Below, piece by piece: positions 428-54,440 of a DNA stretch of 64,000 nucleotides. This stretch comes from Cloeon dipterum (Eukaryota > Arthropoda > Insecta > Ephemeroptera > Baetidae), in the NCBI RefSeq assembly GCF_949628265.1, contig NC_088789.1, positions 20,267,883 to 20,331,882 on the forward strand. The letters are read 5' to 3'. The notes beneath the pieces are model-generated. The model saw only the letters and a list, made by a program, of their open reading frames with translations, was not told where the DNA came from and searched no databases. Both the position numbers and the translations under genes were made by a program. Positions within the stretch are counted from its first letter, which is position 1, and the number at the start of each line of letters is the position of its first letter.

Positions 428-3400
428 CAGCAGCAGCGAGGACGCGAAAGGGGCCGCCACTAAGCCCTCCGCAGGTCAGCCCTGCCGCTGGCCGGCGGGG
501 CTGCGGCCACTCTCATCGCACAAATTCAATCCAATCGGCGCTCCGACAGGTGTCTTTTCACTCTGCGTCGCGGCTCAACAAAAAGAAAATCATGTAAGCA
601 CTTTCTCCGAAACCAGCATCGCTCCGTTTGCTTTAGGCCTAATGGAAAGGAGTGATCAATTCTTTGTTCGATAGGAATGGGTTCGAAATTGGTGCAGATG
701 CAGAATTGGGAAATTTTCCGAATGATTGGGAATGAAAGAATTTGTTTATAATTTATTTAGCTTCATTTTTTTGGTGAAAAAATATTTAAAAAACATAAAT
801 GGGGTATGTCAGATTTTTTGTCCAAGAGGAACTTTATCCAAAATGATCAAAATTATGAATTTTTGTGCGATAAATTTTCTTAAAATGAACATTGATTTAA
901 AATTATTTTAATCAATTTGACGAAATAATCCTCTGGCCGGAAAGTTGATGAAATTTGTAATTTTTTATAGCACGAGGGAAATAATGTCCCCTCCTCAATA
1001 TCCTTGGAACGTCATGTTTTTAATTTACTTGCATTTTCCAACCAGCAAGCTATGCAACCCGTAAAAGAATTGAAGTAGGCAAAAGTTATAAGCTTTGATT
1101 TTATTAAAACTACCTTGGTAAAAATAAAAATTCCGTTACAAGTTACAATACGTTAAATTTCTGCACGCGATTTTCCCTGAAGACGTTTCTCTTGGAAAAT
1201 TTTGAAAAATCACGAAACTGGCTAAAGTTTAAAAATCGCACATAATTTCTAATCAAATTCCAAAAATGTAAAAAGTTCATTGAAATCTGACAGCTTTTCA
1301 AGAAATTATGGTAGTTCAAAATTTCTTAAAAATAAAATTGTTGGACGAATATCAAATCACAAATTTCGGACGGATTCTTTTCGGACAAAGTACAGGCTCC
1401 AAAGAAAAATTCGCCACTACGAGAGATATCATACAGGTCGAGTAACTACTGCTGCTGGCATATATATTATTTTTTACGAAATCATAATTGAAAAAAATAA
1501 TTCCATTTGATTGGTGCTGGCGTGAAGTAATGGGATTTAACTCTATGCATGTATGAAGAGCACTTTTTACACTTGAGAGCGACTGAAGTATTTTTGCAGA
1601 AAACGGTTGGTCGGACGGTCGGTTTTTGGTCTCTTTGTAGCGGGCGCTAAACTATAACTCGCAGCGCAACTCATCGTGAAGTAGTCTATCAAGGTGAGCG
1701 CGAGCGCAATCGATTTGGGGCCGCGCTCACCGTCAAACACGTCGATGTAATTGTGTACTACTTAAGCCTTATTGTGCTCAATAACCGCAGTTTATCCCAC
1801 AAATGTCGAGAGATCAACTATAACTAGTGCTATAATTCAGTAACTGGGTGTTTCAAAGTCGAGATTTACGCACAAACACGTTAAATTATACACGCAATCT
1901 GTTGATGTAATTGTGTAGACACGCAAGCAGGTGAGAGAACGAAAGTATTATTTCAAACAAATGTCCGCTTTGGTTGATCGCTTTAATCACATTGAAATCA
2001 TTCTGCAACTTAATGCGAATCTGGACTCGAAAACCTATCAAAGCGAATGCGTGCATGTGTTTCTAAATAAGCATTATAAATATTTTTGTAATGTGTGCAA
2101 GTGAAAAGCGACTCAAGACATTTAAAATGTGTACACAAAAATACCAATCTATAGCATTGCTATAGGGCTGGGAATTTTAGACGAGAAAAAAAACAGCAGG
2201 CTATTAACTATTTTCCCAATATTCTCCTAGTGAATTGCTTGAGAATATGAAAATAATTTAATTGTTTTAGTTATTCAGGTTTAAATTTGTATTCGGTAAG
2301 TGTAAACTGCTCTTTAAAAATAATTGTGAATTTGCCGGAATTTCTCAATCGAAAGACAACAGTGTTGAGTGACTAGAGCAACATGTGGACGGTTTTAGAC
2401 ATTTTTTAACACTTTTAAACGAATCGTCAACACCAATTTCGTGATTGTTTCAAGTTCAATAGTTCAATTTTTTACGTTGAAGTGATATCAGTAAAAATCC
2501 AGACGGTTTGTATGGTAAAAATTTGGCTGTTTTCGAAGGTTCATGGATCAGACAATAATTCCAATAATCCTGAAACTCTGAGGAAATGAAAAATAATTAT
2601 TTCAAATTTTTCATGGAAAAACCTATCCTACTGGATGATTTTTTTTATTTAATTCGACAACAATAGTAGTCTAATAAGATTTCGAACTTTCACGGTTTTA
2701 ACAATTGGTACAGATAAATTTTACATGATTGATTTTATCCCGCTAAAACAGAGTTTGCGGTGGCCAAAAAAGAGCCTGAAGAATTAAGTGCAAAAATTTT
2801 AAACCAATCTTAAAAAGTTAATCAGAAAATCGTCGAAAATTCCCACCCCTAAGTATTGCACACTAATTTGGGTTTATAATTTTTAGCAATGCAACTTCTT
2901 GTCGAGATGTTGGACAATACAATTTGTAAGACGCGGAAATGTCGAGAAATCCCAACTAAACACTTTTGTTGTAAGCTATAGCTGTAAGGCGCATCAATAT
3001 TGCTGTGAGATGTCGTAGTTTTGGCTGTAAATCAATCAATTAACTCTCATCGTAGGGTGTAATCATAAAACATAATCAACTCATGCTTCTCCCTCGGTAG
3101 GCGAGGCCGCGGAAAATCGCACAAAAAATCGATCAGAATATTGACACTAAATATCAACATATCGTTTGAGCAAAATTTTGTCGCTATTTTTTTACAGTGC
3201 GATTCGCCGTGCGTCTCAGGCGCATTAGGGTGCAATTATTGAGTTGAGAGAGCTGCTCAGTGACAGTGTTAGGCCTCTACGTTATAAGCGAATCTCTGTA
3301 TGTGGTCCACTAGCTGTTAACTAAGATGGAAAAAGGTGTTTGTAACGTGCATGCACTATACTCAATTATAACAAGCAAATCAACCAAGTAGGTTCAACTG

Positions 3401-4088
3401 AGACGCTTCCATTTCTGACCAGACGAGTCTTTTTCTCTAGCTCAGCACAATCCACTCTACTGATAAGTGTGTACATAATTATATAAAAGAGGGAAAGATG
3501 TGTGTTATTTAAAATTAAAACTACACACACGCGCTATGTATGATGTACACGTCGTACACTCTATATAGGTATATGATATATATGAGAAAAATACATAAGC
3601 ATTTGTCTTAGCGCCTGACCGATTTTAGACACATCACTTTTTGCCTCTTTCGCGCCCCAGAGTGGCTCGCAAATCTGAATAAAAAAAAAATAACAAAAAC
3701 CTAAATGCTCAACGTCCGCAAATGGCCTCTGGAGATATCCAAAAGTTTTCTTTTCGACGCTGTTTGCTTCTTGTTTGGTGTTGAGCCACCCTGGAGAACT
3801 CACTTAATTTTGACGGTTTTTCTAGGAAGAGCCCTAACATGCATTTAGCTCGTAAGGTTTTATACACTGGCTTTGGAAATTTTTAGGGCGAGCATATGTT
3901 TCAAAGTCGAAATCGCTTTTAATTATTTCGACACCTGTCTATAGACCTCCCTAAGGACGGCAAACAGATCAGATACCTGACACTATCAATCAATCACTTC
4001 AAATTTTTATCAAGTCGGCCGCTGCGTAGATGGTGTTTTAAAAAGAACAATTTGTGACTGAATTTGAGATGGGTTGTTTTTATATAGT

Positions 4089-4892
4089 GGGTGTTTCCGC
4101 AAGAGATTTCATATCGCTTGCAAATTTTAAATTTTAATTTGAGCACCATCCTGGTTTTTATCAGAGATGGCAAAATAGCCTAGCTTGACAGAAAAAAAGG
4201 GCTTTTTCCGGAAAATCTTGAAAAACAGGCCTCTCGGTGTTCCACAAAATGACAATATATTATCTTGAGTTTTAATAGAATTTTGTGCCATAAGATGCTT
4301 GTTTAGACAGCCAACATACTTTTTAAAGTTGAAACTAATCCTTTTTGTACATATAATTTTTCATTTTTAAAATAATAAAATTAATTGGTACATTAGGGTG
4401 ATTTCTGAGCACCCTGATGGCTCTCAAAGGGTCGAACCACACATATTCTGAAAGCTTGTGACTTGTGTTAAATTCACGGCGTGCAGATCTTTCAGATTTT
4501 TTAAAACTCAACTGAACTCAAAAGTATCCTTTATTACTATTCCTGAAAACTTCCTCGCATATTACACAGACTTAGGTTAGCATTTTATCCCAAGCTTGAC
4601 AAAATTTAAGATTCAGTTTGAAAATAAAAAAAATTAGAACAAATTGGTTTATATACGAATTTTTTGGCTGCAAAGCATGATATTTTAGCTTTATTAGAAC
4701 TTCGAGAAATTCTAATTTTTTTGAAAGCTGAGAGGCTGTTTATTTAGATTTTCCGGAACAAAATCATCAATTTTTCCCAGACTAGGTATTTCCACATCTC
4801 TATCAATATAAATACCAAAAAATATGATGTTATACTCCAATAAAAATTAAAATAAAATTTCAGGCCATTCAAAATCTCTGGTGGAAGCACCC
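4089..4892. mobile_element. MITE-like element, family 2, copy 1 (about 804 bp)
   Basis: The ends are imperfect inverted repeats about 50 bp long. The left end starts GGGTGTTTCCGCAAGAGATT. The reverse complement of the right end starts GGGTGCTTCCACCAGAGATT, and both run into an A/T-rich stretch containing ATTTTAATTT. There is no coding frame inside, so this is a non-autonomous DNA element. Two other places in the window carry the same terminus (29148 and 33734). The target-site duplication is unclear. The superfamily is not assigned. Confidence 0.65.
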
Positions 4893-6041
4893 TGTGACTT
4901 TTTCCTCTATTTCAATTATCACTCAGAATAACAAAAAGAGGAAAGAAGCGAGCTAAATGTCAATTGCAGTAAAACTAAAACTGTAGACGCACCTTACAAA
5001 ACTGTAGTCAATATTGGAAAAGACGGAGACCGCGTGCATAACCATTCACCGTTCTACATATTTATATTATAAATGAATTTCAGCAGCTGGTGTTGCGACA
5101 CTTCTAACTTTTGCTTCGCCTTTCGCGATAGAAAAAACATTTCCGGGCGAAATTCAGGTCGCTCTCGCAAAGGGGGAAGAAAGAAGTAAAGAACACACAC
5201 ACACAAAATGCTATATATTTTAGCGCTCACAACCTGCACTATTCGATTATAAGTAAATAGCGGCCCTATGCACGAGATGACATATCTATTTTGCTGGACA
5301 CTGTGTTGACTCAAAAGTGATTGTTGTTGATTGTTAGGCGGAGCTTCGCGAGGTCGAGCTTCACGCCAAAATACATGAAATAAATATGTACTCATTATGT
5401 TGGTTGCTTTTATATGTTTAGACTCTGCAGACAATAAAATATATATACTGAAATGAAACTAAAGTCGAGCCAATGGTCAGTGGAAAATAAAGTATGTATA
5501 TATAAATATACAAAATGTTGCGTTTCCATTAATTATTTAACCCTTTATGGCTAACAGATTAAGAACAAAAAATAAACGAATTATCAACAAAATCTAAATT
5601 AAAAAAGTAAATTGACACGTGTTTCAATCAAGGCAAGAGAAATTTTCGCTCAGACATGGCGGCGATCAGTGGACCATGGTTGTTAAACCAAAATGCACAC
5701 ACTGAAACAAATCTAATGCTCACTCGTGCAGCTTGCCTAGATTTAAATGTTGTTCAAATTCAAACTTAACCTGCCATGGATTAAAGAACAGACCAAAGTA
5801 GCATAATATTTTGAAGATGTCAAAGAAGGGGGAAATATTTATATGAAATGGTTGAAAATCTCACAAATTATTAAAAAAAGTCCTTATTTCATGTATTGAG
5901 ATTAATTTTCCTTTTTTTATCATTTTGGATGTATTTTAAAGGAAATTGAAACGCTGCAAAAAATTAAATTAAGTAAATACCTAGAGAATAAAATGTTCTC
6001 GTATTGAAACAAGTAAAAAGTCCAGTTAGTACAATTCAGAA

Positions 6042-6047
6042 TTTATT
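6042..6047 (-). terminator. Candidate polyadenylation signal for SNX17
   Basis: AATAAA on the minus strand about 710 nt beyond the SNX17 stop codon. Other A/T-rich candidates exist nearer the stop, so the true end of the transcript is not determined. Confidence 0.3.
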
Positions 6048-6760
6048 TTGCAAGAGAGGACACACAGCAAAACAGAGAGTCTAGATCTTCATTTCTTCGA
6101 GAACATCTTGTAGAATGTCGAGTAAATCAAAAGAAAAATATATGTAAATAAAGATAGAATCTCCTCAAAATATAAAGTCCTTTAAATTGCTCAATAGGAA
6201 AGAATAACAGTTTTCTACTAAGAGTAACAATTATTATAACGCGTCCCACATTCAGTCTATTCAATCCTGTACAAAAATATCCCATCCATGTTGCTTCCTC
6301 AAAAGTATCTTAAAATTATTGTTTTTTCTGTAGCTCATATTTTTTTGTATCAAACAAAATTGACATCTAGACAACGAGAGTAATAATCAATACACCTATA
6401 AACGATAATAATAAAAGTAGCCAAGGTTGCCGTGTGGTTATCGTGTCAAGTCATTGCACCCAAAGTATAATATCTACACATGTAAAGAGGTTCGGTTTTT
6501 AAGACCCCGCCTAAAATATTTATAAAAACGACGTTGGCACTAACTTAAGACGACACTATTGATATTTCATTTTTCAAAAATTTCAAAATCTGTAAAATAC
6601 GCAGCTCAAATTCTGTCTTTGGAAATTGTATTGGTCCGTAAGACAAAATTGAGACTGCAACCGGTGCACCAATTGTGAACAAAATGTTGGCAAAATTCAG
6701 TCCGTGAGCCGATCTAGGGACGGTAAAATTTTCGTGGAGGTTGCGACGCGGTCAGTCTGC

Positions 6761-9700
6761 TCAGAGGTCGTCATCGCCAATGCAGTCAAACGCGTGATTT
6801 TCAACGAAGGGGTTCGCGGGCGACGAAGGACTGTTTTGTCCCTTCACCGAGACGCCAGAGAGTCGGCCCGACAAGCGTTTAATTGACGACCTCCCTTCGT
6901 CGTGCCGGCTGACACTCGAGTCTTGCGACCGAACGCTCACATCCTTCAATCAAAACAATTTGATTTTAATTTTATTGTGTGATACTCACTGTCAGAAGGA
7001 AACCCAGCATGCCTTCCGAAATGAAAAGAAACTTTTCGCATTAGACGTGTCATTAAATTAGATTGAAATACGAATTACTTGATAAATTTTTTTATCCAGC
7101 TACATTAAAAGGAAAATTAAAAAATGGGATATTTTTGCCAAATCATGATGTTTTAAGGTATCTTCACATAGCTAATTTGGGTTTTTCCAATTAATGAAAA
7201 TTAATTAACCATTTACAATCAACAAATAATTTAAAATATTTTTTGTGAAATTAAAAAAAGCAAAATTCATCAGCTTTCTAAATTTTAGATGTAATTTTTA
7301 TATTTTATTACGATTTTAGGCTCAAAGTAATCTCAGCAAATCAATTCGTCCAGAGAGGGGGAATCTATGTACGAAAATAATCATCAAATTTGACAGGAGA
7401 CTAAATTTTTAAATATAATATATATAAAATGATTAGTGACTTCTGGAATTTGAAAAACAATTTCAATTGGTAATATAAGTTTACCATCTCAGAAATGTAC
7501 ACGTTGTATGGACAAAATAATTCATTTTAATTCGCTTGGTATACAGGGTTGCCATTGAAAAATATTTTCTCCAAAGAAATACTCGTGAATACTAAGAATT
7601 TAAAAAAGAATAATATGTACTCACCGATATTGCATCGTTGGAAATTGACCTCGTGACAGGTCTGACCCTGTGGAAGGTGCCATCTCTACGCATGAACGAC
7701 CAGGGTCTGTTTGGAAGTTTCGGAATTGTCGAGGGCCCCTTTTTAGCAAGAAGCTCGGCCACCATGGCCTGCAGACAAGCTGACATCAGAATTGCCTGAT
7801 CACTCACCACCGTAATCCACTGCAGTCTGGAAATTGTATCGAAATTGTTATTAACAAGTGAGAATATATCTATTTTCTCAGGACGTACCTATCCTTTGCC
7901 ATCAGGTATTCAAACGAAAGCTCGAGTCTCGGTCCAGGGCGGACGACGCCACCAAGGGCCTCGCTTTCTTCCTCAGCCTGTTAACGGAGAGAATTATGTT
8001 ATACAGTTGCTTTTACGTTTTTTTAGGTAGACAACAGTTTTGGAAGATAAAATCAAGCCATTAAATATACAATAATTGTACTTATCTAGGATCAGAGTAA
8101 ATTATAATCTTAATTTTTTACTTTTACTTGTTGGGTTCAATCAGAAAATCAATATGAAATATTGATTAAGTTTTAAAGAACGATGAAAACACTCGTCAAA
8201 TTTAAATTAAAATGATGCCTTAACACTGTGATAGTGGTTAGTCAATTTTAATATTACTATTTATCAACAAAACAATATTCAAGTTTTCAATCTTGACGAC
8301 AATTTCCAAATCGGTGTCGTTAATGTCATGTTCAGATCCATCAGCGTTAGATATACACATTCTTAAAATTTAGTAGACGCTCAGGAGCAATCTACAGCCA
8401 TCAGGCCAGGTTAAAAAAACTTAGATGATTGGCAATCATTTCACGATTGGCTTAAATCCATAAAATGATTTGAAACGGCATTCGTTGTCTTGGCCCATCG
8501 TGGCCAAGCCGCCTTCACTAGACGTGCCTGCTCTCGGCGAGCTACATACTCTCTCTACCAGTCTGAGCACACGCTACCGCTGGCTAATATGAATTTCAAT
8601 TTCATTAAGACGGTGATAATTATTTCTCATTAATAAATTCAGATGTCGATATAAAACACCTGACAAAAAAAAACAATCAACAAGACTCCCAAATACTCAT
8701 TATACCGTAATCGAAAATAAAAATAACAAATCTAAATTAACAGTAGTTAGAATTTTATGAAAGCGCGAAATTGAATATGCACTAAGTATTAAGTTAAACA
8801 CCAAACTGTTTAAAAATAAAATAACCTAACGAGTTTCACAAATTACATTTAAATTTCTATGAGAAAGCTGCATGGTTGGTCTTGAGAAGTAAAAATTTGG
8901 AAATGCTTAATCAGATGAGTTTTTCACGCGAGTTATGGTCGAAAATCAGGATTCAGCAGTTTAAACCAGTTTAAACTAACAACTCAGGACAAGATATAAA
9001 CAAACGTCTTGAATGCTACACGCAAAGTTATTGTTTTGTTTCCTGTCCAGCCAAAATTGTATAGTGAGTTACAAAAACAAATATTGAGGTTTTCTCCTTT
9101 AGATTACTTTTTATCTAATGTTCTCGCTTAGAAAATAGGAATTTTTATCTCAGCAATCCTGCCTTGAAGAACATGACATTTTAAAATGGAAAGTAAACAA
9201 TTTTTTTAATTTTTTTACAAATTACCAATGGAGCTAAATTGTCTGTTAAAAAGCACAGAAAATTGGAATAAATTTTTGTTTAATTTAAAAATACAAGTTC
9301 AATTAATATTATATAAATCAAATTACCAAAACTCAAAAACTAAAAAAAAAACGGTTTCAGTATTTAGTTTTAAAGCGTTTTCCATGTGAAATCCGATATG
9401 AAAATATTCTTTCAGAGAACCAGAACTCGTTAACTGTCAAATAAATATTCTTCCTGCTTATGTCTCTTTCAGAATAGTACTTTTAATAAGAGAATAAGTG
9501 TTTCCTTTTGAGAGCTACTTACATGAAGTGTGGTAATCCTCCAGCACCGCATTCTAGTAACTCTAAAGCTGCCCTCACTAAGTGTCTCACTGGAGTCGGA
9601 AGATGAGCTTGAGGAAGCGTCCGGTGTCTGCAGTCGCACTCGGAAATTTAGCTCCTTATTTCCAGCACCGATAAGCACTCTCATCCCTTTCTGCGGATAG

Positions 9701-26488: not shown

Positions 26489-26888
26489 GTAAAAATTTAA
26501 AATCCAACGAAAAAAGTGCATACATCAAATAATTTATTTTTAATATTTTGTTCATGAATTTATGACTATTAATTTAACTTTATATCTTCTACTCAAGATC
26601 TATTTCCCTTTAACCTATCTTTCATTACTTGATCTTAATAATTCATAAAAAAAACATCATGAAACCAAAAAGCCTTACTGGAAAAAATATTTGTTAACTT
26701 TTGATCTTTGACCATCAGAGATTTATCAACTCATTTCGCAAGAGAGGCGTGGAAAACTCCCCGTTGGCTCCCTTGACTAGCTCCCTCTAAAGAGATATAT
26801 GTTACATAGACTAAGAAGTGAAGAAGTGAATTCTCTTTTTCCACCAGTCACGCGTTTCTGTCAGAGTGTGTTATAACAATTTCTGGCA

Positions 26889-27320
26889 ATGAAGATTTTG
26901 GGCTTCTTCTTATGGACCTCCTGGTTTTGCATCTCTGTCTCCTTGGCTTTGCATCCAAAATGTGAGCCCATCAGGATTCCTTTCTGCACGGAACTGCCGT
27001 ACAACAAGACCATCATGCCCAACCTGGTGAACCACCAGATCCAGGAGGACGCCGGGCTGGAGGTGCACATCTACTTCCCGCTGGTCAAGGTCAACTGCAG
27101 CCCCGACATGAAGCTTTTCCTCTGCAGTGTCTACACACCCAAGTGCAATAACCTAGGCGTGCCACTTCCGCCGTGCAAAGACCTTTGTCTGTCGGCAAAA
27201 AATGGTTGCGGTCCCCTGATGCAACGTTTTGGTTTCGCCTGGCCTGACGTCTTGAATTGTGACAAGTTTCCCAATCCAGGAGATGGAGTCCTTTGCTATG
27301 CTAAACCAACCTCCGTCTAG
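26889..27320 (+). CDS. Secreted Frizzled-type CRD protein, single exon
   Basis: An intronless frame of 143 residues. It has a signal peptide (MKILGFFLWTSWFCISVSLA) and then one Frizzled cysteine-rich domain with all ten cysteines (from CEPIRIPFC through to GVLCYA). It stops right after the CRD: there is no netrin domain, so it is not a classical sFRP, and there are no membrane segments. A free CRD can bind the lipid of Wnt ligands, so a Wnt decoy or carrier is a sensible inference. It is closest to the CRD of frizzled at 37258 in this window. The [10 protein letters not shown] to CSVY stretch is about 93% identical in DNA. AATAAA at 27556-27561 gives it its own 3' end. Expression is not shown by sequence, but the clean frame beside a decayed copy argues it is under selection. 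Confidence 0.88.
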   Translation: MKILGFFLWTSWFCISVSLALHPKCEPIRIPFCTELPYNKTIMPNLVNHQIQEDAGLEVHIYFPLVKVNCSPDMKLFLCSVYTPKCNNLGVPLPPCKDLCLSAKNGCGPLMQRFGFAWPDVLNCDKFPNPGDGVLCYAKPTSV

Positions 27321-27555: not shown

Positions 27556-27561
27556 AATAAA
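27556..27561 (+). terminator. Polyadenylation signal of the secreted CRD gene
   Basis: AATAAA 236 nt after the stop codon at 27318-27320. Confidence 0.55.
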
Positions 27562-27672: not shown

Positions 27673-27687
27673 GGGGGGGGGGGGGGG
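27673..27687. repeat. Run of 15 G
   Basis: An uninterrupted 15-base G tract between the CRD gene and its pseudogene. It is unusual in AT-rich DNA, is likely to vary in length, and could also be an assembly weak point. Confidence 0.8.
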
Positions 27688-27854
27688 AAATTATCGTTTT
27701 TAACTTTTGATCTCTGATACGGTCATATTAATATGTATTTTAGCAAGTGATGCGAAATAAACTTTTCTTGTATAGTCCTTAGTGATTTCTCTTTTAAAAC
27801 TGAGAAGTATCCGTTCAAAAATATTCCACTTCACAACTTGCGACTCCTGTTGAC

Positions 27855-28185
27855 ATTCTGGCTTTGCATCACTTTCTAACGGACTTGTCATCAAAATTTT
27901 CAAAAACTTAAGATTAATTTCTACTTTTATATGGCATACAACAAGGCCATCAGCCCAACCTGTTAAACCAGACGCAAATAGAAGCCGAGCGACAAATGAA
28001 CGAATTTTATCCATTGGACAAAGTCAACTGCTGTTCCTCTGCAGCTATGTAAATTTTTGGGAGTGGAGATTTCTGTGCCAGGAGAAAAAAAGATGGTTGC
28101 GAATCGCTGATGAACTGTTTTGGGTTCCCTTGGCCAGAGGACCTAAGGTGCAAACAGTTAAACGATTCAGGCGTCCTACTAGGCT
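27855..28185 (+). pseudogene. Decayed copy of the Frizzled-CRD gene
   Basis: Aligns in order with the intact CRD gene at 26889. Matches include CTGGCTTTGCATC (signal peptide region), TACAACAAG.CCATC with CCCAACCTG (PYNK.IMPNL), GTCAACTGC, CTCTGCAG, GATGGTTGCG..TC.CTGATG, TGGCC.GA near its end and CAGG.G...GTCCT. Stop codons, frame changes and internal deletions break the frame many times. No open stretch covers the domain. It shares the signal-peptide region with the stand-alone CRD gene rather than with frizzled, so it probably arose as a tandem copy of that gene. Confidence 0.8.
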
Positions 28186-37257: not shown

Positions 37258-40200
37258 ATGGAGTTGCGGACACCGAGCGGCCGGTCCGTGGTGTCCAGCA
37301 TGAAGGTGGCTTTCGTGTTGCTGATCATTTCGCTCAGTTCTATCAACTCGCTATCGACGCGCGTGTCCGACAAGGACAGCCTTCCACACCACGAGCGCTG
37401 CGAGCAGATCACCATCCCGTTCTGCACGAGCATGCCGTACAACAAGACCATCATGCCCAACCTGCTGAACCACCAGAAGCAGGAGGACGCCGGGCTGGAG
37501 GTGCACGTCTACTTCCCGTTGATAAAGGTCAACTGCAGCCCCGACATGCAGCTTTTCCTCTGCAGCGTCTACGCTCCTGTGTGTACCCTCCTGGAGCGGC
37601 CCATCCCCCCGTGCAGGTCGCTTTGCCAGTCGGCCAAGGATGGCTGCGAGGCCCTGATGAACCGCTTCGGCTTCCCCTGGCCCGAGGGGCTCGACTGCGA
37701 AAAGTTTCCCGTCACGATGAGTGGTGACGAGAAGGACATCTGCTTTGGAGAAAACAAGACCAGCTCGTCGGCGCCAACCTCAGGCAGCTCACCTGACGGC
37801 GGTTGGAACTTCCCCATGAACCCATACGAAAGCAATAAGCATCTTTCAGGTGGTGCTAAAACTTCATCAGGGGATATATATTCGAACCCTGCAGGGAACA
37901 TCCCTAGGATGCTAGAGCCAGGACAACGATTCAGGTTTGTTTATTTCGCACTTGATCGAGTTCCTTCTTCTTAAGACTTAATATAGTTTTCCAATATTGA
38001 TTTAACTTGATTTTATAATAATATTATGGTGAAAATTTATGATTTTGCGCTTATTTCTACAAGCTTCAAATAATGATATAAAGGCATACAAAAATGAAAA
38101 AAATTCGGTTGAATTGTTTGTAACAGCCTGTTCACCCCTTGATTTTTCATGAATTGCAAAAATTTGCATTTTTGGGCACTTACGTTTAAAAAATTTCAAA
38201 CTACTTTTCTTCAAGAGTTTTTGCTGCTGGTTAAAGTAATTAAATGGTTGAATTTTCATGTGGTAAAACTTTCTCCCATGTCAAGTTTAAATTTTTAAAT
38301 TCCTTGATTTTGAGGGAGGAGATAACGTAAAATTATACAGTTCTTGCTTATGATAGTGCTAAAATTGAGAACTACAAGAAGTGGGGAAATCCGAAAAATC
38401 GGGTGGTAATCTTGCAGTGAACATGCTTGAAATTAATTTTTAATCCTTACGCTATAAAGACAGACGTTAAGGCATCTACTCTGAGTAAAAGGCAAGAAGT
38501 TGCAATTTTTGTGAAAAAATTTTCTAATCATTTTTTCACTTCCCTGTAATTTTAATCAAAATAATCTCGATTCAATCGCATTATTGTGGCATTTTGGGAG
38601 GGTGTACAACACGCTTGAATTTTCGTTTCAATGCCAGCAGTCGTATTTGTATTTACTCTATTCCGTAGGGAACCCTCGCCACCTGGTCTTTGTAGTAGGT
38701 GAGTGCGGCTGCACAAAGGTTAACGGTTAACTAAAATGAGGGTTTAATACCAAAAACAGACCTTGTTAGTCAAGGTGCAGGAATTGAGAGAAAATTTAGT
38801 GCTTTTTCAGCTCATTCCAGTGCTTTGAGGTAATATTTAGAAAATGTATATTTTTTATAGATTTTACAGTATTTTAGCACTTTGTCACAAATCAAAACAA
38901 ATTCACGGCGAGTTAAAACTTTTAGGATTTAAGGGTTGTTTGCCGATCATCTAAAAAGTCTGACTAAAATCCGGCCTCATCGTCAAATTGACCTTGTCTC
39001 AAAAGGGGTAACTGAAGTGGTATCTTTCGTTATTCCACACCAAATATAAATTTGTAAGCACATAAAATTTAAAAAGCTAATTGCTTCGCTTTTTTATTTT
39101 ATTCATTCAACAGAGCTGTTCAATGTCACCTTTTCAAAATCTAAAAAGGCTTCTCATTTTTTGTCCTTTGTAACATATCACTTTCTGCTATCAATATCTC
39201 CATTGTTTACTTCCTCGGTTTGGCTGCCGTCTAACCTGGGTGGCTAGTCCAAAGTTTTTGACAGCTCTGACACTAGTTTCGTTTTCATCACCCACAAATT
39301 AGCCTGCTGCATTGCGATAGTCAAACATGCCCAGAAGTCAGGTGGTCCTTTGGATCAGGTTTCAAACTGGAAGGGTCAAAATTCCAAACATCAAAAACTG
39401 GTCAGCAAGTCGATAATCATAAAACTGGCTCATTTCAACCTGACCCCCTTCTCTGTGAGTAACCTGATCCAGGTTCAACCTTTGACTGGCTTCGCGAGTG
39501 TCGTTTGGCGCATTCCAACAGGGTTTTGTTCAGTTTTTTCAGTTATTGAGGACATAATAGAACATTGAGCAAATTATGAAGGCGAGGCGAGCTTAAAATA
39601 TTTTGACTTTATTTAAATCTCACTAATAAGGAACCCCCGCATTTTATTTATTATTTTTCGCCATTAGATGGAAAATGACCATTGATAAGTTTCTATATGA
39701 GCTATGTATGAATTTTTGTTATTTGAGATTTTTTTGCATAATTTGTAAATTGCGGCTCAACTACCCCACATTTGGGAACCGCTATGTAGGCAACCCTTAT
39801 TGTTAGGATGGCGGTTTGTGGCGGTTTTCCTGTTATATTTAAAAAAAATGTTACAAAATTACGAAGGTTTTATGCAAAAAAACGTAACGTTAGGTGTGGA
39901 AATGACCACAGTGACTCTTTTGCGATATATAATTGTTAAAAATTGTTACTTCCAGAGATTTTAATCCTAACTGACGGTGGCCTATGTTTGGTTCCTGTTT
40001 CCGCAGGTTCGGGTTCACCTGCCCGCGACAATTCGCGGTGCCGAAAGGCCTGGACTACACCTTCAGTGTGGGCAACGTCAGGGAAAAGAACTGCGGCGCT
40101 CCATGCGACGAGATGTTCTTCACGACCCAGCAGAAGCAATTCGCGCGCATCTGGATCGGCGTGTGGTCGACCCTGTGCCTGTTCTCGTGCCTCTTCACCG

Positions 40201-43200
40201 TGCTGACCTTCCTGTTTGACACGAACCGCTTCCGCTACCCTGAGCGACCCATCATCTTCCTCTCGGGCTGCTACCTGGCCGTGTCGGCCGCCTACGTAGC
40301 CGGTTTCCTCATGGGTGACCAGATCGCGTGCCGCGATCCCTTCCCGCCGCCTGCCAACATGCCCAACATCAAGATGGTGTCCACCGTGACGCAGGGCACC
40401 AAGCACGAGGCCTGCACCATCGTCTTCATGGTGCTCTACTTCTTCAGCATGGCCTCCTCCATCTGGTGGGTCGTGCTCACGCTCACCTGGTACCTCGCCG
40501 CCGGACTCAAGTGGGGCCACGAGGCCATCGAGGGCAGCTCGCAGTTCTTCCACCTGGCCGCCTGGGCGGTGCCTACGGTCCAGACCATCACCGTCCTGGC
40601 CATGGGAAAAGTTGAAGGTCAGTGTCTCGCTTATTTCTTCATTAATTTGAGCTATTTTTTGTGATCAAAAATGCTAAATCTTGAGATTGAATTTGATCTT
40701 GACTTTGATTTTTAGTTCAGTCGTAAAGAAAACTAAAAAATATTTTCAGAAATTCTGGGCGCGGCGAAAACTGATAAAATGGAGTTAGTTTTCATCTGTC
40801 TGGAGAATATTCCCTTTCGTAGGATTTTAAAAAAATGCCCTGAGTTGAAATCGAATTTATTAGATGTTACTGCAGGGTTTAATTTGATATTAAGAAAGAT
40901 TCCACCTCCCATATTTTTTTTTGTTTAAACAATGTTTTTAAAATCTTAACATTCAGAAACGATCTTTTGAATTTCCTCGAATGAGCCATTTTCATGCCTG
41001 TACTTTTATGGTAATTATTGCCATCTCCTTTTTAAACAATTAAAATTCAAAGAGGAATTGTTGCGGACTGGTGAGAACGTACAGCTTCATAATTAATTGC
41101 TACTGACTTTCAAATTATCCTTAAATATAAAAATATAATTTATTGCATATATGCGCCGTTAGCTCTGAGAGGCATGACTTCATACAGCTTACGCTAAAGT
41201 GGTGATAATTAAACTCAATCCAGTCTCTCCGTCAACATCTGGATATTATAATATTTTTGTTTTGCCTGGTCTAATTAATCATGCGTCGCGCCAAAATGAG
41301 AAATGTGGACGGTCGATAAGTCTTGGAACGTGTCGTGATGCGATTATACTCTTAATTATGCAGTGCCGGAGTGATAAATCACGGCAAGAACGTGATTTCG
41401 TTTCTTTCTCGCCGGCGTTGGCCACGGCTTGATGGTCTTGAGAAATCCAATTAAAACGCGGGTCAGAAGGCAACAATTCATTACTTCCCTCGGGGATGCA
41501 GATTCGATTCCGGCCGAGAACAAGAAGATGCTTGTCGGCGCTGACAATCTCGGCAGCATCTGGCTTTCAAATGTTTGAAACGACCAAAATAGAACTTCTC
41601 ACTCGGCACCACCCGCACGTCTCAAAGCAGGAAGCCGCCGAGAAATGCGCCGTGTGTGTACGCCGTACGCCTCCCTCATTAATTACACAACTCGCCGATT
41701 ATTTCGGCGCCGAAGTCGTGGCACAATCGGCGCGTCGTCGCCCGCCGGCGATAAATTTGTCAAGTGCGTACGAGGATCGAGCTGAGTGCCTCCGCCGGCA
41801 ACACTCACGGGTGGCTCTCGCTTATTTATTTGTTTCTATACGCCTCGAGAGGCCCGCGATAGGACGAGGAATCTCAGCCATTCGGCGCGGAAAATGATCC
41901 ACCCGACACGTGAACGACTCTATGGGTGCCCGACTCAAATTTCACGCCTGCTTTTTCGACACGGCAGTGTTGGCTTGATTTCAGCTGCAAATTGAGTCGT
42001 TGCTAGCGAAGAATTTTAGACACCAGCAAAGAGAAAAAAGTAAATTGATGCAAAATCAGTGGAGCTTTCTAGCTATTTGCTTGTAACTCTATCCTCAAAC
42101 TGTGTTAAAGCTTAAATTTACTTAGGTTGTTGTGAATAAAGCTTCTTCTAAGTATTATGTGCTTGTCTGAAGTGCTGCGGGAAAACGAGGATTTCCCTTA
42201 CAAGCCACATTCCGGTGAGCAGATATTAACAAGAAGAAAATAAAATGTTATTAAACAGTATTTTATTTTTTCCGGGTAAATTTTGCAAAAGACTTAATTA
42301 GAAAAATCATTCATTCATGCTCACACGTACACTGAAAAGCTATTCGCGGGAATTAGGACAGAAAAAAGCGTACTTGAAAATTGATAGCTCAAAGATAAGC
42401 AAACAATTATGAAAATAGTGCCGATTGAAACTAACTTAAATTTTATAGATTGCCACAAAATCTTGAAGCACTCTTGACTCGGAAAAAAGATAAATCCAAA
42501 TGTCGTGGCCTGGAAATTAAATCATCAGACTGTGTCTTTGATCTGGGAACAATTATTATCGTTAAATTTGGACCAGAAGAAAATGCACCTAATCCTCCTC
42601 ACTTAGTTTATCATTCATCTGTCTGCTGGATTAAGGTTCTCACGGCACGCAGCTGAATTAATTTCGAGGGCGATCACGTTCTAATTAATTGTGTTAGGAA
42701 TTGTTTGGCCATCGCCATCTGTGACTTGTTGTCGTGTCGCTTCAACAAACTGCTGCTTTTTATCAGCAGAATGAAAAGCCCGTCGCACTTGATAAGGTTT
42801 TTTTTATTTCGGGGCGACGCTATTGATCTGCACCGCCAGAGCTTTTTATCAGTCAATCAATACGCGACCATTCGAATTGTGTCTTAAATGTGCCGCGATG
42901 ACAGCCAAGTAGTGCTTTCGCCACGCGGAGAGAGGATGGTGTCTTTCAATATGTAATAAAATTTTATCCTTTCTCGCCCGCGCCGGAGAAATCTCTTTTG
43001 CACTCATTTTTTCGAAAATCGTCAAGCACCAGCCCATGGGCGTGCTGTGTTTGCTCGTAATGCCTGCAAAGCATGCGAGCAGATTTTGAATAATCGTTGT
43101 TTCTCATGCGAAGCCCTCATCTAATCTCGATAATGGCCCGAAAAACCAAATAATTCGCCCACGTGTGAGGGGAGAAACAGCGTGTTCAAATTTGTTGTGT

Positions 43201-52200: not shown

Positions 52201-54440
52201 AAACGAGAACAAGACGGCCGTAAATTCCGAGATGTTTGAATTCAAACGGCGGTAATGGAGACGTCGCAATTTATTCATTTTCCGAATGTATTTTTGGAGC
52301 CACTCGTCATCAGTCAGTTGTTTTGACACAGAGCACGGCCCGCACTCGGAAATTGATTTCTGCCCTATCTTGATAGCAGCAACACGAAATTATTAATGGT
52401 CTCCAGCGTTTGCCCCAAGGTCGGCTCGCGAGGGTTCACGTTTTTAACTGCGTTCGGTCAGGCATTTTATTTTCGGGGTGCCGGGACGTGTTCGGTGGGA
52501 ACAAGTTTGTTTACTCTTCATCGGAGGTTTCATTAACGCAAAAAATTGCTTTCAATGCCAATAAAACTCTTTTAGACCTGGGAAACACTAATTGCTTGAT
52601 TTATTTATCTTCGAGATTGATTTTTACTCGTTGTATGAATGCTGTTTAGAAAATGCTTCTGACAGTCTTGAAGGCCAAAATGAGAACAATTTTAAGAAAA
52701 CATTTTTAAGATTTCAATTAATATTTTTGGACGAAATTTTTATTTGTCTGTTCATAGAAATGCAATAGATGCGGTTTTGGTTCTGAATTGTCATACATTT
52801 TTTTCATTAAAAATATCAAATGGAAGTGTTATAAAAATTATTCACATTCTTTTCAAATTAGGAAAGAAATAGCAAATTAAAACTTGACTAAAATATTGTA
52901 TAATATATTAAAATTTAGTAATGTAGTCAAGGCTTGGTGTTCCAGCACTTTGGGAATAGGTAGGAGATTTATCTCACATTTTCAAAGGTACAGCTCACTG
53001 TCAGCCGACTTCTTTCCGGTTTTTTAAATTTAATATTCCTGAATAGCCACAGCCCTGAATATTTGAATATTTTGTCCTCCATTCAACCTTGTCACATATT
53101 TACTTCTCATCCTATTCTTTTCCCTGAAATATTTCTTTGAAAATCGTCCTTTTCATTTTTTTTTTCATTTTTCTAACAATAGTTAAAGTACAAACTTATT
53201 CTCTTCTTTTTACCATGCTCACTTCTTCTTTTCTGAAAGGTGATTGGTCAATAGAAACAAGCATTGTATTTTTACAAGGCCATACATTTTTATTGAAAAT
53301 GGTTTTTCTCTAACACGTGATAATATTATTTTAGGGGGTTGATAAGGGAGGGTGTTTAAAACCATTTTTTGGTATTTTAAAACATTCAGGGGCAGCTACA
53401 GTGCATTTGGCGCTTGTAAAATAAATTAATTCCTTTATAATGAGGGGTGGAAGAATGATGAAAAGGGGCTACCACCTTGAAATCTCTTTGGCTCGTCAGT
53501 CGATGTCAAGATGAGTTATTCAGTTTTTGCATTTATTTTCTGACCAGCTGAAACCGAGATCTCGTGTTCACTTGATATCTCGTTTTTTTTACCCTAAGCC
53601 ACGTTTTGACCTATAATTGATATATTGTGTTTAAAAACAAAATACAGGAAAGTGCTTAACATTTTAGTTAGAAAATTTTACCAAATATTCTCTTTGTCAA
53701 CACCACCAACGCATATTAGAAAATCAAGACGGGGATGTGACGGGAAAAATTGGGCTATTAACAAAATACTGCTGATATGTTCCCTGAATATACATATTAT
53801 TTTTGTTTGAAGCTCTTTTTATTAAGGCCTCAACAATTTATTAAAAATGTCTAACTTAATTTGTGATTAAAGAAACAAAATATTAACCGTCTTTCTTTTC
53901 ACAGGTGACGTGCCGAGTGGCGTGTGCACCGTGAGCTCGTGGGACTCGACGGCGATGTTGAGCTTTGTGCTGGTTCCTCTGTCGATTTATTTGGTCATCG
54001 GCACCAGCTTCCTGCTGTCCGGCTTCGTGTCGCTGTTCCGCATCCGCACGGTGATGAAGCACGACGGCACCAGGACGGACAAACTGGAGAAGCTGATGAT
54101 GAGGATCGGCGTGTTCTCGGTGCTGTACCTGGGGCCGGCGGCGTCGGTGCTGGCCTGCCAGTTCTACGAGTGGTACTACCACGACATGTGGATGGTCACG
54201 TGGAACTGGGAGAAGTGCAAGTCGCGCAATCCTTACGCCATCCCGTGCCCGCAGCTGCTGGCCAACGGCAAGCAGCCCGAACCGGTCAGGCCCACCTTCG
54301 AGGTCTTCATCCTCAAGTACGTGATGGCGCTGATCGTCGGCATCACCTCCAGCATCTGGGTGTGGTCCAACAAAACACTAATCACGTGGAAGAACTTCTT
54401 CCGCAGGTTCAGGTCGCACAAGGCCGAGGCCTATGTGTGA
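37258..54440 (+). CDS. fz: Frizzled Wnt/PCP receptor (Fz1 type)
   Basis: Three coding exons: 37258-37934, 40007-40617 and 53905-54440, giving 607 residues. A second ATG at 37300 starts right at the signal peptide core ([14 protein letters not shown]) and would give 593; Drosophila Fz has 581. The CRD with ten Cys covers about 48-162 (CEQITIPFC to KDICFG). After a Ser/Gly-rich linker come the Cys-rich FGFTCPRQF block and seven membrane segments ([20 protein letters not shown] is the first). [17 protein letters not shown] and [22 protein letters not shown] are family hallmarks. The tail has KTLITW (the KTxxxW Dishevelled-binding motif) and ends EAYV, like the QAYV PDZ ligand of fly Fz1. That ending and GDVPSGVC favour Fz1 over Fz2. 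Exon GC is far above that of the introns. Intron 2 is 13.3 kb. Confidence 0.97.
40618..53904 (+). other. Second intron of frizzled (13.3 kb), likely regulatory
   Basis: It has no convincing nested gene. Roughly 41160-49350 looks different from other non-coding DNA in the window: more GC-balanced, few A/T runs, and many homeodomain-like TAATTA/TTAATT and GATA-like TGATAAG/TTTATCAG words (for example 42755-42860). That look is common in clustered developmental enhancers, but this is inference. The flanks (40620-41150 and 52650-53900) are ordinary AT-rich intron. Confidence 0.4.
46391..46480 (+). other. GC-rich open patch, possible nested exon (weak)
   Basis: Inside frizzled intron 2. After an acceptor-like gcgattcag at 46382-46390 comes a 29-codon frame with 26 of 29 third positions G or C, containing [15 protein letters not shown] and ending at TGA 46478-46480. 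High GC3 is typical of the exons here. However, the other frames and the minus strand are also open across the patch, so the composition alone may explain it. Confidence 0.2.

Follow-up and report, generated by a model that had tools for sequence, protein, structure and literature searches.

A gene upstream of frizzled (fz) in Cloeon dipterum, here called CRD1, encodes a stand-alone Frizzled CRD of secreted type, and gene conversion from fz is the probable source of the core of this domain. It lies in a stretch of 64,000 nucleotides from contig NC_088789.1 (the window, to whose positions the coordinates refer). Taking all parts of this reading together, we hold it to be reasonably probable that CRD1 is a working, old, stand-alone secreted-CRD gene with an fz-converted core, whose product would bind and modulate Fz-type Wnts. 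The most interesting part of the finding is the gene-converted receptor/decoy pair.

The CRD1 coding sequence (26889-27320, + strand), identified by its frame and by Pfam and PDB matches, runs uninterrupted from its ATG to a TAG stop, encoding 143 residues. Its first 20 residues (26889-26948, +) look, by eye, like a signal peptide, making this probable. Residues 25-129 (26961-27275, +) match the Fz domain PF01392 over profile positions 1-108 of 110, with E = 4.2e-34 and a score of 117.9 bits, where the family cut-off is 32.1. PF01392 is the sole Pfam family matched at E≤1, and the frame has the full set of ten CRD cysteines (C25, 33, 70, 79, 86, 96, 100, 107, 124 and 136). The stop codon follows 7 residues after the tenth cysteine, with no netrin (NTR) domain, which places CRD1 outside the sFRPs where that domain is required of them; the SFRP criterion written down in a sponge study does not demand a netrin domain (PMC6386478). 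In all these respects the original prediction is borne out. Its description of the gene as intronless holds for the coding part; beyond it a 5′-UTR intron is possible, because a pyrimidine tract followed by AG, resembling a 3′ splice site (26826-26847, +), ends with its AG at 26846, 43 bases 5′ of the ATG. Downstream, an AATAAA poly(A) signal is located at 27556-27561 (+).

The solved structures closest to CRD1 are those of Frizzled-1 (E = 1.6e-46) and Frizzled-7 (E = 9.3e-46), from among 58 distinct PDB sequences that match at E≤1, and by homology the product is expected to adopt the CRD fold with five disulfides. An AlphaFold model of residues 21-143, made from two sequences with fz as the sole other row, has a mean pLDDT of 46.9, too low to be of use. 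An Rfam scan over positions 20000-42000 gave 0 matches, and a search of viral contigs gave 3 pattern matches and 0 relatives.

CRD1 lies on the same strand as fz and about 10 kb upstream, as predicted; the start-to-start distance is 10.4 kb, measured to the first ATG of fz at 37258. The first coding exon of fz (37258-37934, +), its start taken as the first ATG and its end inferred from the frame and a donor at 37935, encodes the signal peptide, the CRD and a linker. The first part of the 7TM domain is in coding exon 2 (40007-40617, +, with inferred borders, inside the open frame 39975-40664), and the last part is in coding exon 3, which is contained in the open frame 53871-54440 (+). Frames on the opposite strand with WD40-like and DM-domain matches sit between CRD1 and fz. 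A further CRD match 31 kb upstream of CRD1 (L016), considered as another copy of it, instead belongs to what we take to be a corin-like gene (about 1361-7005 of locus L026, in that locus's own numbering), which lies 30-35 kb upstream of CRD1 and in which LDLR-like exons come after those for an Fz CRD; some 42 kb from fz there is thus another CRD gene.

The gap-free alignment of CRD1 with fz spans 111 codons, with 71% protein identity over these 111 residues, but the likeness peaks in one 132-base block. In this core tract, codons 36-79 (26994-27125, +), the two genes are near-identical at synonymous sites: nucleotide identity is 93%, the residue is the same in 38 of 44 codons, just one of these 38 differs silently, and NG86 dS is 0.08. 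Over the C-terminal 49 codons, on the other hand, NG86 gives dN 0.28 and dS 2.05, with synonymous sites saturated; for the first 18 aligned codons dN is 0.56 and no dS was returned. The synonymous differences (27 among 84 degenerate same-residue codons) are strongly clustered, none of 100,000 shuffles reaching the observed segment score (P = 1e-5), and the longest run of identical degenerate codons is 27 (P = 4e-5, by shuffling). That codon bias explains the scarcity of synonymous differences is rejected by a control using codon usage from 504 fz codons, in which 35 of 36 degenerate same-residue codons in the tract are identical compared with 23.2 expected (P = 1.7e-8); outside the tract the figures are 17 of 39 and 21.5. 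The tract borders were chosen post hoc, a choice for which the shuffle test allows and the codon-use test does not. The CRD1 and fz tracts share the rare codons CTT and GGG. The tract is taken as codons 36-79 for NG86, the shuffles, the codon-bias control and the identity counts, and as 35-78 for the later trees and branch-omega models.

The GC3 values of the 5′ part, tract and 3′ part are 0.66, 0.98 and 0.50 in CRD1, and 0.86, 0.95 and 0.81 in fz. This pattern, the sole basis for a direction, points to fz as the donor, and the matching segment of fz exon 1, delimited by synonymous-site comparison (37432-37563, +), is the probable source. One conversion event from fz to CRD1 is supported by these comparisons. 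In the 77 residues outside the tract, CRD1 is identical to fz at 41/77 positions and to human FZD1 at 41/77, while fz and FZD1 agree at 47/77. Because the tract is near-identical while the C-terminal synonymous sites are saturated, and because the outside part is no nearer to fz than to FZD1, CRD1 is probably an old gene into which the core was copied from fz by gene conversion.

Not mentioned in the original prediction is a degenerate copy of the same domain 0.5 kb downstream of CRD1. This sequence, CRD2 (27847-28172, +), is interrupted by in-frame stops and a frameshift and has suffered deletions and the loss of cysteines; its broken frame marks it as a pseudogene. Upstream of it, 32 bases (27686-27717, +) are 81% identical to the upstream flank of CRD1 (26680-26711, +; blastn E = 0.001), and CRD2 is therefore most simply the decayed tandem sister of CRD1. 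CRD2 reads FYPL, like human FZD1/2/7, whereas fz and CRD1 both read YFPL, a difference that is in line with a conversion postdating the CRD1/CRD2 split.

Selection on CRD1 differs between the tract and the remainder. For the 77 codons outside the tract, with the signal peptide excluded, the CRD1 branch has an omega of 0.045-0.053, values that are extrapolated and rough in view of synonymous saturation. Omega = 1 is rejected for this branch on both topologies (2dlnL 7.20 and 5.94; P = 0.007 and 0.015) and in a separate fit (2dlnL 6.97; P = 0.008), and long-term purifying selection on CRD1 outside its core is thus supported by the likelihood test. In 20,000 neutral simulations, run with no indels, the outside part stayed free of stops with 7/8 CRD cysteines in 0.24% of runs at 0.24 substitutions/site, the value from the neutral codon-model fit, and in 6.7% at 0.1. 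Within the tract, the test does not reject omega = 1 for the CRD1 branch (2dlnL 0.55); the estimate ran to its bound and is significantly higher than on the other branches (2dlnL 10.52; P = 0.001). Since the conversion the tract has gained six residue changes against one synonymous change, which may reflect relaxed constraint, selection for residues specific to CRD1, or too few sites.

This high tract omega is the main result against a functional CRD1. With the decayed sister 0.5 kb downstream, it could mean that CRD1 is likewise a non-functional copy on its way to being lost, whose look was merely freshened by the conversion from fz; the changes in the tract since that event are compatible with omega = 1 and give a higher omega than is seen on other branches. 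We regard this as unlikely, since omega = 1 is rejected outside the tract and since, despite the synonymous saturation at the C-terminal end, CRD1 has kept its frame and its ten cysteines intact.

Secreted CRDs shape Wnt gradients, and the CRD1 product is probably a Wnt-binding modulator. In the mechanism we propose, the core would have been copied from fz by ectopic gene conversion across some 10 kb, and the secreted product would bind the same Wnts as Fz by means of the same lipid groove. CRDs bind other ligands besides Wnts, and the large divergence of CRD1 outside its core (a branch of 1.22, compared with 0.18 for fz, in the outside-tract tree) would suit a secreted CRD with a non-Wnt ligand. 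That reading seems to us quite improbable, however, as the tract makes up much of what we presume to be the Wnt lipid groove, and 38/44 of its residues are as in fz.

Our preferred reading, a Wnt modulator, has a parallel in the secreted Fz4 CRD, which in Xenopus is reported to act on Wnt/beta-catenin signalling in two ways, a low dose enhancing weak signals and a high dose being repressive, with the CRD reported as sufficient (PMC4077065; see also PMC1291380); a model has been put forward in which small amounts of a CRD mobilise Wnt and large amounts trap it (PMC4068752). The CRD1 product may act in the same way, mobilising Wnt when the product is scarce and trapping it when the product is abundant. 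Conversion from fz may in addition keep the ligand-binding core of the decoy matched to the receptor. A stronger version, in which fz repeatedly rewrites the Wnt-binding core of its neighbour while the remainder evolves independently, so that decoy and receptor are kept matched, we put forward only tentatively, as a good deal less probable than the preferred reading itself. There is precedent in the CEACAM receptors and their decoys, for which conversion is argued to keep the two alike (PMC2832619). As is proposed for fz and CRD1, it is the ligand-binding exon of CEACAM1 and its decoy or paired receptors that is kept similar by gene conversion (PMC2832619); the CEACAM1 pairs, however, are mammalian immune receptors with Ig domains, whereas fz and CRD1 would be a Wnt pathway pair. 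If conversion recurs, a morphogen receptor and its decoy would be evolving in concert, in the way argued for the CEACAM receptors, and a receptor that rewrites its own decoy, if true, would be a testable case of decoy-receptor matching. If CRD1 is both constrained and receptor-linked, it would add to Wnt control in an insect a layer that has been overlooked.

The origin of CRD1 was initially interpreted as a plain, lineage-specific partial duplication of fz exon 1 that gave rise to a new secreted gene. The stand-alone CRD gene of secreted type, with no netrin domain, stands; the simple duplication is not supported as it was put, as the likeness to fz is concentrated in the tract and elsewhere fz is as distant as FZD1. 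A recent partial duplicate with fast-diverging flanks could draw on the 71% protein identity over 111 residues and on the best outside-tract tree (13/14 rows, CRDo2 omitted), which joins CRD1 to fz with support 65/91, under the star threshold. Even so, a single recent event does not account for a block with dS 0.08 that adjoins saturated synonymous sites, nor for the equal likeness to fz and human FZD1 outside the tract (41/77 each), and we consider it very unlikely. The deeper relationships are less sharply drawn: the tract-only tree (13/14 rows, CRDo2 omitted) does not single out CRD1 with fz and does not reject this grouping (p-AU = 0.131), and a first tree of 11 rows places CRD1 beside the FZD4 group (90/94). 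With CRDo2, the second CRD-only gene described below, codon models on the outside columns prefer CRDo2 as nearer to fz than CRD1 by 1.8 log units, whereas with the tract counted in, on the full 115 CRDo2 columns, only 0.2 log units separate the two topologies. Fz-type ancestry of CRD1 is nonetheless likely on these alignments.

That CRD1 provides fz with an alternative 5′ exon, specifying a receptor isoform, is highly improbable: CRD1 has the same domain and strand as fz exon 1, 10 kb upstream, and stronger donor-like GTs occur within the CRD at 26962 (3.3 bits) and 27027 (1.1 bits), but use of these would cut the domain, the best GT from the eighth CRD cysteine to the stop reaches -2.7 bits (the 72nd percentile among GTs of the window) against 1.1 bits (94th percentile) and 4.5 bits (99th) for the donors of fz exons 1 and 2, a stop codon and the AATAAA come after CRD1, and the opposite-strand WD40-like and DM-domain frames intervene. 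With its separate frame, its own stop and poly(A) signal and, on the approximate matrix used for all these donor scores, no notable donor after Cys8, CRD1 differs from splice isoforms of the Fz4S type, and the lack of a seven-pass domain (PF01534) in its frame sets it apart from the Frizzled receptors.

The original prediction further saw in CRD1 a candidate for an undescribed component. As a kind, secreted CRD-only genes have already been described, with three in Platynereis dumerilii (fzCRD-1, -2 and -3) and one in Aplysia, all proposed to be Wnt modulators (PMC4669655). Like CRD1 these are separate genes, reported to encode an Fz CRD with a secretion signal and without an NTR domain, and their authors read them as lineage-specific CRD duplications (PMC4669655). 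With a signal peptide (judged by eye) and a single CRD in a separate frame that lacks an NTR domain, CRD1 is, as far as its predicted protein goes, built like fzCRD. It shares all ten cysteines with fzCRD-1, from which it differs in that the latter is 208 aa long, falls in the sFRP3/4 group and may retain a remnant of an NTR domain, and the Aplysia gene model is one that may be incomplete (PMC4669655). CRD1 is distinguished from the fzCRD genes by its 143 aa, its fz-like core, its position adjoining fz and its probably converted tract. Its C-terminal identity is 0.33 to sFRP3 and 0.53 to FZD1, and in sequence it is closer to Frizzled-1/2/7 than to sFRP3 or sizzled, although sFRP1/2/5 and sFRP3/4 share with it a secreted-type Fz CRD and modulate Wnt. 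The secreted Fz4 variants (Fz4-v1, FZD4S and Xfz4S) also have a secreted-type CRD without the membrane part, but are made by splicing of the receptor gene (PMC4077065, PMC1291380), whereas CRD1 is a separate gene. No arthropod CRD-only gene was found among the titles and abstract openings of the papers covered, which is no proof of absence.

The 190-Mb assembly that includes the window contains 16 Fz-domain matches, the genes being named here by sequence likeness and hence presumptively. They comprise fz, CRD1, the CRD2 tail, fz2 and fz4 (two exons each), an sFRP1/2/5-like CRD, a second stand-alone CRD, the corin-like gene, a smo-like gene, two Ror-like matches, one unplaced match (L019) and two weak ones (L023 and L024). 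The Ror-like, smo-like, corin-like, unplaced and weak matches were not counted as CRD copies. A parallel scan for the 7TM domain (PF01534) gave 10 exon matches, located at fz, fz2, fz4 and the smo-like gene.

The sFRP1/2/5-like CRD (L030) has two exons on the - strand of contig C5 (G000:C5, about 10522.9 kb and 10521.0 kb). It is present here although insects are said, in the account of PMC6162966, to have no sFRPs. The same genome has 5 odorant-receptor matches (best E = 8.7e-12), which mark it as that of an insect, and 1 odorant-binding-protein match, out of keeping with the 191 such genes reported for C. dipterum, although searching exon by exon may leave many undetected. A genome scan for the NTR domain gave 4 matches (best E = 0.025), one of which is just above the cut-off together with its neighbour; the Pfam scan placed none on contig C4 and none on C5, the contig of the sFRP1/2/5-like CRD. 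Since the genome also has this CRD, CRD1 fills no empty place.

The second intact CRD-only gene, CRDo2 (L028), is found by the Fz-domain scan outside the window, at G000:C4:28407183-28407611 on the - strand, 8 Mb from CRD1; it too is absent from the original prediction. Its 143 residues begin with a hydrophobic stretch and include ten cysteines, the frame stopping past the CRD, and over the CRD it is 58% like fz and 44% like CRD1. Estimates of omega for the CRDo2 branch over 115 codons, again rough because of saturation, are 0.049-0.116, and the tests on the two topologies reject omega = 1 (2dlnL 9.71 and 8.23; P = 0.002 and 0.004). The occurrence of two intact CRD-only genes in one genome suggests repeated use of the CRD-only route.
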